Positions 38,444-40,544 of a DNA stretch of 42,802 nt are shown piece by piece. Both the position numbers and the translations under genes were made by a program. This stretch comes from an uncultured bacterium (GTDB lineage: Bacteria > Bacillota > Clostridia > Lachnospirales > Lachnospiraceae), in assembly GCA_947177425.1 (NCBI GenBank), contig CAMWUN010000030.1:1-42802 (forward strand), in the 5' to 3' direction. A model generated the notes under the pieces. That model ran no database searches, was not told the DNA's origin, and saw only the letters and a program-made list of their open reading frames with translations. The stretch's first letter is position 1. Every line of letters begins with the position of its first letter.

Positions 38444-39808
38444 TCATGATTTCAATGCGTCCCGTATATTCCGGTTGCGCTTCTCATTCAGCTTTTCATA
38501 CAGTTCAATTTCCTCCTGTGAAAAGCCTTCATACTGAATCTGTTCCAAATTGCAAAGTACATACAGCGCCTCTGACAGAACCCGCTCCGCCTCCTGTGCC
38601 GTCACATATTCTTTCGCCCTGGTTCTTCTCTTTTCTTCCTGCCGCTTTTCCTTTGCTCCGCCTTTTATTTTTGCCCTGTCCTTTTCCTTCTCAGGCACTG
38701 CAATCATGCCTTTTGCAAGCAGTCTCTGGAGTGCCGCGGACAAGGCTCTTCTGGAAATGTTTAAAATGTCCGCCATTTCCTTGTAGGTACAGTTTTCATG
38801 GGGCTGGCTTAAATAGTGCAGAAGTTTCACGTCCACAGTTGTCAGGTCATGCCGCAGAGCCACGATGTCAAACAGCTTTTCCTGCAGTTTCCTTTCCCTG
38901 TACAGGTCAAAAAAGATTCCCTCGCCTTCCAGTACGCCCCCGCTTACGCTGGTCCGCTCATCCCCAAGCCTGTAATTCCCCGGCATGCCTAAAGGCGATA
39001 CAGCCCCGTCGCTGGCCGCATCAAACAGGAAACGGTACACCTGCCCCCTTCTTTTTTCATAATCCGCATCGTCAAAGACATCCTTGTAAAAATCATTGTA
39101 ATAGGCAAAAACCGTGCGCTTCATCTGGATAATCTTTTTCATGCTGAGCCCCTGGGAAACCAGGGAGCCCTTTGTCTTTACATAGTAATATACCGGTACC
39201 TTCAGCGCATAAATCGTATGCGCATGCCGCACATATTCCATGTTAAACATAAAATCTTCACACCAGCTAATAGATATATCCATTTTCAACTGATATTTTT
39301 CTATGATAGAGCGCTTATAAAATTTGTTCCAAAGAACGCCATAATAAAAATCCGCAGGTTTCTGCATCATGTTCCCGGCGTAGTCAGCCCTGTCCATAAG
39401 CCCTTCTTCTTCGATGCTTCCCTTCTGCGAAACACGTTCCCCGACCACTCTGTAAAAGTCTGCAATGACCATATCGCACTGATATTCTGCAGCCGTGCGC
39501 ACAAAAAGCCCTGTTGCTTCCGGGGTAATCCAGTCATCACTGTCAAGGAACTGCAAATATTCCCCCTCCGCCATGGCAATCCCCTGGTTCCTGGTATCGG
39601 AAACTCCCGAGTTTTCTTTGTGTAACACCCGGATGCGGTTATCCTTTTCTGCATAGGCATCACAGACCTCCCCGGACGCATCTGTGCTTCCATCGTCCAG
39701 CAGTATCAGTTCAAAATCCCTGTATACCTGATTCAGGATACTGTTTATACATCTTTCAATAGTCTTCTCCGCATTATAGACCGGAACAATAATGCTTACT
39801 AACGGCAT
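38444..39808 (-). CDS. Family 2 glycosyltransferase fused to MarR-like winged-helix domain
   Basis: A 454-aa fusion. Residues 1-~230 are a GT-A fold GT2: SIIVPVYNAEKTIERCINS, LLDDGSTDASG, the DxD-type FLDSDDW (89-93) and SWCEDFMFN. Residues ~313-454 look like a MarR protein: LTTVDVKLLHYLSQ, an HTH TYKEMADILNISRRALSAAL (341-360), a wing region replaced by a highly basic stretch (374-400, many Lys/Arg/Glu), and a dimerisation-type helix ending FSQEEIELYEKLNEKRNRNI. GT2 adds sugars to cell-surface acceptors; how DNA binding fits is unknown. No frameshift or second start is seen, so it is one protein. AAGGAG lies 11 bases before the ATG. It follows the 7-TM gene by 31 bases. Confidence 0.85.
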   Translation of the reverse strand: MPLVSIIVPVYNAEKTIERCINSILNQVYRDFELILLDDGSTDASGEVCDAYAEKDNRIRVLHKENSGVSDTRNQGIAMAEGEYLQFLDSDDWITPEATGLFVRTAAEYQCDMVIADFYRVVGERVSQKGSIEEEGLMDRADYAGNMMQKPADFYYGVLWNKFYKRSIIEKYQLKMDISISWCEDFMFNMEYVRHAHTIYALKVPVYYYVKTKGSLVSQGLSMKKIIQMKRTVFAYYNDFYKDVFDDADYEKRRGQVYRFLFDAASDGAVSPLGMPGNYRLGDERTSVSGGVLEGEGIFFDLYRERKLQEKLFDIVALRHDLTTVDVKLLHYLSQPHENCTYKEMADILNISRRALSAALQRLLAKGMIAVPEKEKDRAKIKGGAKEKRQEEKRRTRAKEYVTAQEAERVLSEALYVLCNLEQIQYEGFSQEEIELYEKLNEKRNRNIRDALKS

Positions 39809-39839: not shown

Positions 39840-40517
39840 TCAAAAAGTTTGCGCCTGCTGTTCTCTTCTCATTGCAAGGAAGCCAATCAGCACTGTCCAC
39901 ACATATGCGCATGTTTTCGGAATCATCAGCATCCCTATCATGGGAATTGCGTCCGCCCAGAGCACCACCGGAATATAAAATCCAAAACTGAGAACGATGG
40001 TCAGCCACATATGTTTAAACGCATTGTCCCCACGTTCCCTTGCGCATTTATAATACAATACGATAATCACCAGCCCCAGCAATGCAAAAGGGATATTGCG
40101 GTAAATCCCCCAGGAAAGCGGGGCGTCCGCCTCCAGCCATTTATTCTGGGGAAACAGGCATAAAATAATACGCATGGCGGACAGCAGATATACGACGGCG
40201 GTTATGCCGCCCTGGCCTTTCACTTCATACCGGACCCGCCACACATAATATAGTATAACATAAAAAACCGTCATGGTTATGGATGTGATAAATTTCCCTA
40301 TTCCAAGGGCCCCAGTGAAATTTTCCAATCCTGTCGTACACAGCGCCAGCGCACGGGGAACCAGATGAAAGGAATCCCCCGCCCCAAGCACAACCGCCAT
40401 AATGCCAAACAAACGGTACTGTCTCCTTCCGCCGCTTTTAACAATCATAATAATTCCAATCGTGATAACGGAAACCAAATATACGGTGTCAAATACTGTT
40501 TCTACAATAGCCTGCAT
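39840..40517 (-). CDS. Seven-TM membrane protein of unknown function
   Basis: A 225-aa very hydrophobic protein with about seven membrane segments (VYLVSVITIGIIMIV, LFGIMAVVLGAGDSFHLV, ITSITMTVFYVILYYVW, AVVYLLSAMRIILCLF, PFALLGLVIIVLYY, WLTIVLSFGFYIPVVLW, MIPKTCAYVWTVLIGFL). I do not recognise the family. ATG 40517 is chosen: AAAGGG is 7 bases upstream, while an ATG at 40538 lies inside a palindromic operator and lacks a ribosome site. It probably shares an mRNA with the GT2-MarR gene and is controlled by the TetR protein. Confidence 0.85.
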   Translation of the reverse strand: MQAIVETVFDTVYLVSVITIGIIMIVKSGGRRQYRLFGIMAVVLGAGDSFHLVPRALALCTTGLENFTGALGIGKFITSITMTVFYVILYYVWRVRYEVKGQGGITAVVYLLSAMRIILCLFPQNKWLEADAPLSWGIYRNIPFALLGLVIIVLYYKCARERGDNAFKHMWLTIVLSFGFYIPVVLWADAIPMIGMLMIPKTCAYVWTVLIGFLAMRREQQAQTF

Positions 40518-40531
40518 AAATTTTCCCTTTC

Positions 40532-40544
40532 TGAACATCGTTCA
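40532..40544. promoter_or_regulatory. TetR operator upstream of 7-TM gene
   Basis: TGAACATCGTTCA, perfect TGAAC / GTTCA arms around three bases. It matches the palindrome upstream of tetR (41171-41183). It lies 15 bases before the membrane-protein start codon. No clear -10/-35 pair is visible between the tetR terminator and this site. Confidence 0.75.

Follow-up and report, generated by a model that had tools for sequence, protein, structure and literature searches.

A glycosyltransferase family 2 domain and a complete MarR domain in one open frame in Lachnospiraceae

The contig CAMWUN010000030.1 (assembly GCA_947177425.1) of an uncultured Lachnospiraceae bacterium, the whole 42,802-nucleotide stretch analyzed here and called the window below, carries a gene whose product joins in a single frame a glycosyltransferase family 2 (GT2) domain and, judged by profile matches, a complete MarR domain with both its winged helix and its dimer helices. 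This GT2-MarR architecture is real and conserved, and we did not find it described. In the explanation that we favor, with a probability of about 0.5, the MarR fold would serve an envelope-type GT2 enzyme of some gut bacteria as a dimerizer with a basic docking face.

Two domains and the spread of their fusion

The N-terminal part of the protein matched Glycos_transf_2 (PF00535) in a Pfam scan with an E value of 1.4e-38 and 132.9 bits against a cutoff of 23.3, and the acidic residues D39, D89, D91, E184, and D185 were invariant across 63 aligned proteins. We take these acidic motifs, including the DxD-type one, to have their usual roles and the ED pair to be catalytic. The best-scoring solved relative covering most of the GT domain was 6h1j (residues 2-253), and the GT domain was also similar to 5tze over residues 5-219; we assume that 6h1j is TarP, that 5tze and 5tz8 are TarS, and that both enzymes have C-terminal oligomerization parts. 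By its sequence the domain is a GT2 with intact catalytic motifs, in agreement with the original prediction, and it probably transfers a sugar.

In the C-terminal part, MarR_2 was matched at residues 320-378, just below the cutoff of 27 bits when the whole protein was scanned (E = 6.4e-06, 26.7 bits) and above it when this part was scanned alone (E = 9.3e-07, 29.4 bits), and it was found at an E value of up to 0.01 in 65 of 75 family members. A profile-profile comparison matched the C-terminal domain of the family to five MarR proteins from the window's own genome with a probability of 99.1 (E = 1.3e-18) over 128 columns that include the dimer helices, against 0.1 and 0.4 for TetR and AraC neighbors used as controls; of eight fetched, six had been detected beforehand by the family's own profile, and the five comparators were drawn from these six. 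The same profile matched SlyA chains in the PDB (E = 3.9e-10) over profile positions 28-143, a stretch that begins with the winged helix and ends with the last dimer helix. The fold assignment rests on profiles, and by them the C-terminal domain is a MarR domain, so the unbroken run of the glycosyltransferase into a MarR-like helix-turn-helix (HTH) and dimer helix, as it had been predicted, stands.

In 72 representatives, four residues of the MarR domain were nearly invariant: K307 of helix 1 and, close to the C terminus, E433, N447, and L452. A basic segment replacing the wing, as predicted, was recovered as well: the net charge over residues 367-403 is +6 in the window protein, the insert is 13 to 57 residues long in the 107 fused proteins, and its net charge across fused proteins has a median of +2 and a range of -4 to +8. 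A linker motif of the PGxxxLGxER type was seen in the fused form and in none of the GT-only proteins listed for the family sample.

A search of GTDB genomes yielded 211 candidate loci, the best 80 of which were taken as relatives. Together with the window protein, all of them (81/81) are one-frame proteins of at least 430 residues; the alignment to the window protein extends to residue 448 or further in 79 of the 80 and stops at residue 373 in the remaining one (L075). Because the MarR part supplied two of the six peptides used in this search, the sample of 80 favors fused forms; the genus and family samples were drawn without MarR-part peptides. A sample of the window's family with one genome for each genus (n = 250) had the GT subfamily in 35 genomes, each time as a single copy at the threshold used, with the MarR domain in 25 and without it in 10. 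The 37 genomes of the window's genus comprised 5 with the fused form, 16 with the GT-only form, and 16 without a match at 1e-60, and the two forms were found together in none of the 21 that carry this GT. With residues 110-300 as the query, 5 of 371 matched in the class sample (2 of them fused and 3 GT-only, as judged by open-frame length, with both fused ones belonging to the window's family), and the single match among 299 in the phylum sample was the window's own genome. Whole-protein searches, in which few candidates were scored per genome, gave 6/391 in the class and 1/299 in the phylum as lower bounds, and the one in the class contributed a further GT-only match from another family. Species named in the record titles of the GTDB loci include Faecalicatena contorta, Schaedlerella arabinosiphila, Oliverpabstia intestinalis, Oscillibacter valericigenes, and Enterocloster hominis; the Oscillibacter record titles indicate that the fused form also occurs beyond what the class sample caught. 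In the plasmid collection, 18 records matched and none covered 80% of the query.

The median omega was 0.083 for the GT domain (224 pairs) and 0.158 for the MarR part (215 pairs), both being under purifying selection; within the MarR part it was 0.216 in the recognition helix and 0.159 in the dimer helices; these values are rough because the median synonymous distance is about 1. An artifact, be it a frameshift, a misassembly, a chance run-on, or the sequencing error joining two genes that the original prediction had allowed for, was rejected as hardly conceivable on the strength of the 81 one-frame proteins, the 25 genera with the fused form in the family sample, and the purifying selection on the MarR part; nothing was found in favor of it.

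Table 1. Features of the GT2-MarR gene, with positions in the window
Feature	Residues	Position	Strand	Evidence
GT2-MarR fusion gene, ATG start, one open frame	454 aa	38444..39808	minus	
GT2 catalytic domain	1-268	39005..39808	minus	PF00535 at 5-172; alignment of GT-only relatives ends near residue 267
DxD-type motif, D89-S90-D91	89-91	39536..39544	minus	D89 and D91 invariant (n = 63)
ED motif of catalytic-base type (assumed role), E184-D185	184-185	39254..39259	minus	Invariant (n = 63); aligns with ED of chain 6h1j
Linker with PGxxxLGxER-type motif	269-299	38912..39004	minus	G282 and E284 invariant (n = 63)
MarR domain	300-454	38447..38911	minus	Pfam, PDB profile search, profile-profile comparison
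MarR helix 1	300-318	38855..38911	minus	Best conserved part of the domain; K307 nearly invariant
Recognition-helix equivalent	351-365	38714..38758	minus	Alignment with SlyA and own-genome MarRs; conservation
Basic, length-variable segment replacing the wing	372-403	38600..38695	minus	Charge and length counts
C-terminal dimer-helix region	406-452	38453..38593	minus	E433, N447, and L452 nearly invariant

Conservation of the MarR part

We then asked whether the MarR part is conserved in the manner of a domain that reads DNA. The control was a single family of true MarR orthologues from the same genus (30 aligned sequences with a mean identity of 61%, 4 of the 30 loci being flagged with an internal stop); it was the sole family tried in full. 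A second one, sought among plasmids, was found in 2 records only and was dropped. In the control, the recognition helix was kept best (mean entropy, 0.34), followed by helix 2 (0.51), helix 3 (0.84), and the wing (1.00), while the dimer helices were the least conserved (1.48 for helix 1 and 1.44 for helices 5-6); all 30/30 sequences retained D and R in the wing motif. A SlyA-type pair of PDB chains behaved like the control, with identical letters at 14 of 15 positions of the recognition helix, 16 of 20 of the wing, and 23 of 45 of helices 5-6. When the SlyA stretch was searched for in the plasmid collection, four Escherichia coli records matched over the whole length at 90-91%, and four Klebsiella records matched only over residues 1-83 of 111 (95%), which is the DNA-binding lobe. 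Six of the records from this search (H12-H14 and H18-H20) are of chromosome size, 4.1-5.4 Mb.

The order was inverted in the close fused clade (n = 37). There, the mean entropy was lowest in helix 1 (0.63), helix 2 (0.86), helices 5-6 (0.89), and the second wing strand (0.94), and higher in the recognition helix (1.12), helix 3 (1.17), and the wing core (1.40). After thinning at 85% identity to 22 close-clade and 25 control rows, the ratio of recognition-helix to dimer-helix entropy was 1.46 (bootstrap, 1.28-1.67) in the former versus 0.23 (0.18-0.27) in the latter. By this ratio, a recognition helix more constrained than the dimer helices was seen neither in the close clade nor in the fused proteins as a whole.

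The wing motif [DN]xR was present in 14 of 101 fused proteins versus 7 of 7 comparators, namely SlyA and six MarRs of the window's own genome; it is missing in the window protein and in 87/101 fused ones, the wing alignment being uncertain where the insert is long. Two proteins with undetermined residues, L018 and L108, were excluded from the wing-motif and charge counts. The net charge of the recognition helix was at least +1 in 100 of 101 fused proteins, with a median of +3, and ranged from -2 to +4 in the comparators. On these comparisons of sequence, the case for specific DNA binding by the MarR part is weakened.

Evolutionary history and genomic surroundings

A tree of the GT domain, built from a subset of the sequences fetched, had 103 rows, comprising 71 fused, 21 GT-only, 2 DNA glycosylase, 2 tail, and 1 GNAT proteins and 6 outgroup paralogues. 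On it two changes of the MarR state are required: the fused clade has one at its base, and the other falls on L118, a short row inside that clade whose GT is 67% identical to that of the window; no MarR remnant was seen near L118 in the three downstream frames. The two changes would read as one gain and one loss, and we infer the direction of the first because the tree is a quick one in which many forks are weak and the outgroup rows very distant, and because support for the non-fused clade is 90 without a star.

The non-fused sister clade is mostly GT-only and also holds other fusions. At L111 (4169-5536, plus strand) the same GT subfamily stands in one frame with a DNA-deoxyinosine glycosylase of the UDG superfamily; TIGR04274, tested on this protein only, gave 137.5 bits against a cutoff of 80. 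A gene cut by the contig end at L110 (1-1008, minus strand) encodes a fusion of the same kind, so that this combination occurs in two genera. L116 (3662-4999, plus strand) has a GNAT acetyltransferase domain at the N terminus of the GT, and in L112 (4149-5288, minus strand) and L117 (1160-2254, plus strand) the GT is followed by an unexplained C-terminal tail that looks by eye like a small HTH, with a weak HTH_23 match in L112 only (E = 0.0078).

Upstream of the gene in the window, 31 bases away and on the same strand, is an open reading frame (ORF) of 232 residues (39840-40538, minus strand), which resembles a membrane protein by eye and had no Pfam match at an E value of up to 1; the GT2-MarR gene converges with an AraC-type gene. 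At 95 fused loci, some species being represented twice, a same-strand neighbor was found upstream in 63 and downstream in 48. Within 150 bases there were 77 same-strand neighbors, of which 72 were readable and 51 were scanned, near-duplicates and spurious-looking ORFs having been omitted by eye; no Pfam family occurred in more than 2 of these 51, and no recurring operon partner was found among them. The neighbors of GT-only genes were, by eye, HolA-, YqeY-, Nudix-, FtsH-, PlsY-, UgtP-, and heavy-metal-ATPase-like, and these recur at few fused loci (YqeY-like at L040, Nudix-like at L018, FtsH-like at L042, and ATPase-like at L058, L059, L078, and L079). PlsY- and UgtP-like genes, again by eye, adjoin the GT-only gene at seven loci (L089, L090, and L097-L101), and one fused locus, fetched twice as L017 and L120, has such a pair downstream in a different arrangement. 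A link to glycolipid synthesis is a possible hint from these neighbors.

No shared palindrome was found in the 107 stretches upstream of fused genes, although this is a weak test. The mean best palindrome scored 6.45 versus 5.65 in shuffles for the 107 fused genes and 6.24 versus 6.04 for 17 GT-only genes, and several of the strongest ones look terminator-like by eye. The gene context held no clue to the identity of the acceptor. PF04464, the teichoic-acid polymerase family, had no match in the window's own genome; in the genus, 7 of the 21 genomes that carry this GT and 10 of the 16 that lack it had a match above the cutoff (Fisher p = 0.10). Flagellin is uninformative, since all 37/37 genus genomes have it.

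Possible roles and known systems

In the explanation that we favor, the GT2 enzyme, which resembles those of teichoic acid and capsule synthesis, would probably make an envelope glycan. A whole MarR protein would have been acquired at its C terminus once in the history of the group, and the fold would then have been retained mainly for homodimerization through helices 1, 5, and 6. The recognition helix and the Lys/Arg-rich wing insert would form a basic face of variable sequence. It could hold the enzyme by electrostatic attraction at a polyanionic acceptor, nucleic acid, or an anionic membrane, and it would read no specific operator. The kept residues of helix 1 and the C terminus, together with a positive charge carried on variable sequence, fit a fold maintained as a dimer interface and a face that needs charge over sequence. 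We infer activity, solubility, dimerization, docking, and an envelope acceptor for the GT2-MarR protein. Between the functions named in the original prediction, dimerization or protein contact is the better fit, and specific DNA binding that would couple the making of glycan to transcription is the less likely one, given the conservation contrast, the mostly lost wing motif, and the lack of a shared neighbor or palindrome.

Several observations weigh against the dimerizer explanation. Over all fused proteins the entropy ratio is 1.03 (bootstrap, 0.99-1.08); among all 107 the recognition helix (1.87) is slightly better kept than helices 5-6 (2.01), with helix 1 at 1.47, and in the 72 representatives the former two stand at 2.06 and 2.09. 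Within the close clade, the comparison of recognition and dimer helices reached only p = 0.044, and helix 3 is no better kept there than the recognition helix. The argument from inverted conservation rests for these reasons (the ratio of 1.03 and the p value) on the contrast with the control, which consists of one family and one SlyA pair and is not matched to the close clade in divergence. Some positions of the recognition helix look kept (S/T352, R/K353, S/T357, and Q361), and a DNA-reading regulator whose targets drift by lineage could give the same pattern. The distribution of PF04464 weakens wall teichoic acid as the acceptor, and the L118 lineage dropped the MarR part and retained the GT.

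That same loss, the mostly missing wing motif, the lack of a shared upstream palindrome and of a shared neighbor, and, in the close clade, a recognition helix and a wing core that belong to the less conserved parts, the opposite of the MarR control, make it unlikely that the protein is a bifunctional trigger enzyme, in which the MarR part would bind DNA and the GT would sense the supply of donor or acceptor, coupling glycan synthesis to transcription. What speaks for such an enzyme is the full MarR architecture under purifying selection, the basic recognition helix in 100/101 proteins with its partly kept S-R-R-x-L-S-x-x-L-Q-K pattern, which over the whole family is no less conserved than helices 5-6, and the precedent of GmaR, a GT acting in transcription according to the available parts of PMC9638930 and PMC3150276. 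Somewhat more doubtful is the picture of a DNA-bound GT2-MarR dimer that responds to its own donor or acceptor, building envelope glycan and at the same time setting transcription at targets that drift by lineage. The winged helix might instead recruit a protein or peptide, binding a partner or acceptor protein as in the GmaR-MogR pair or like the peptide-delivering RREs; GmaR, by the same excerpts, couples a GT domain to an antirepressor, and RREs have been reported fused to PF00535 glycosyltransferases. No recurring partner gene was found among the neighbors compared, however, and the sequence fits a MarR domain with dimer helices and not the succession of elements described for RREs. This is the least probable of the functional readings considered here.

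If the dimerizer explanation is true, a whole transcription-factor fold has been recruited into an enzyme as a dimerizer, and if the DNA-binding alternative is true, there is a glycosyltransferase with a DNA-binding domain of its own. In the former case the fusion would also offer a usable evolutionary trail, made up of the fused clade, its sister clade with the GT alone, which is present in the same genus, and a single natural loss; with it the contribution of the domain could be tested directly. It would also warn that an HTH match alone is poor ground for annotating such proteins as regulators.

No published GT2-MarR fusion was recognized in the part of the literature search results that was looked through. 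A census of regulators puts the companion domains of MarR proteins at 126, and "glycosyl" appears nowhere in its main text, as far as the available portion goes (PMC5882156). The closest published idea is GmaR of Listeria monocytogenes, described in the accessible sections of PMC9638930 and PMC3150276 as a flagellin N-acetylglucosamine transferase and MogR antirepressor with GT, TPR, linker, and antirepressor domains, which acts by binding the repressor MogR. Like the window protein, it joins a GT domain and a transcription function in one chain, and the PDB matches of the window's GT domain include the GmaR chain 22ao; unlike the window protein with its MarR domain, GmaR has no DNA-binding domain named in those sections, and it has a TPR, of which the Pfam scan of the window protein listed none at an E value of up to 1. 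Winged helices of the RRE type fused to PF00535 glycosyltransferases are reported in PMC12710340, but the window domain matches MarR with its dimer helices and not the order of elements given for RREs in the available text of that paper. With MarR/SlyA regulators the window protein shares the whole MarR architecture, dimer helices included, and it differs from them in its fusion to a GT2, its mostly lost wing motif, and the inverted conservation of its close clade. Among the solved GT2 enzymes 6h1j, 5tze/5tz8, and TagF (3l7i), its GT domain is similar to 6h1j and 5tze over the residues given above; it differs from these enzymes in having a MarR domain as its C-terminal part.
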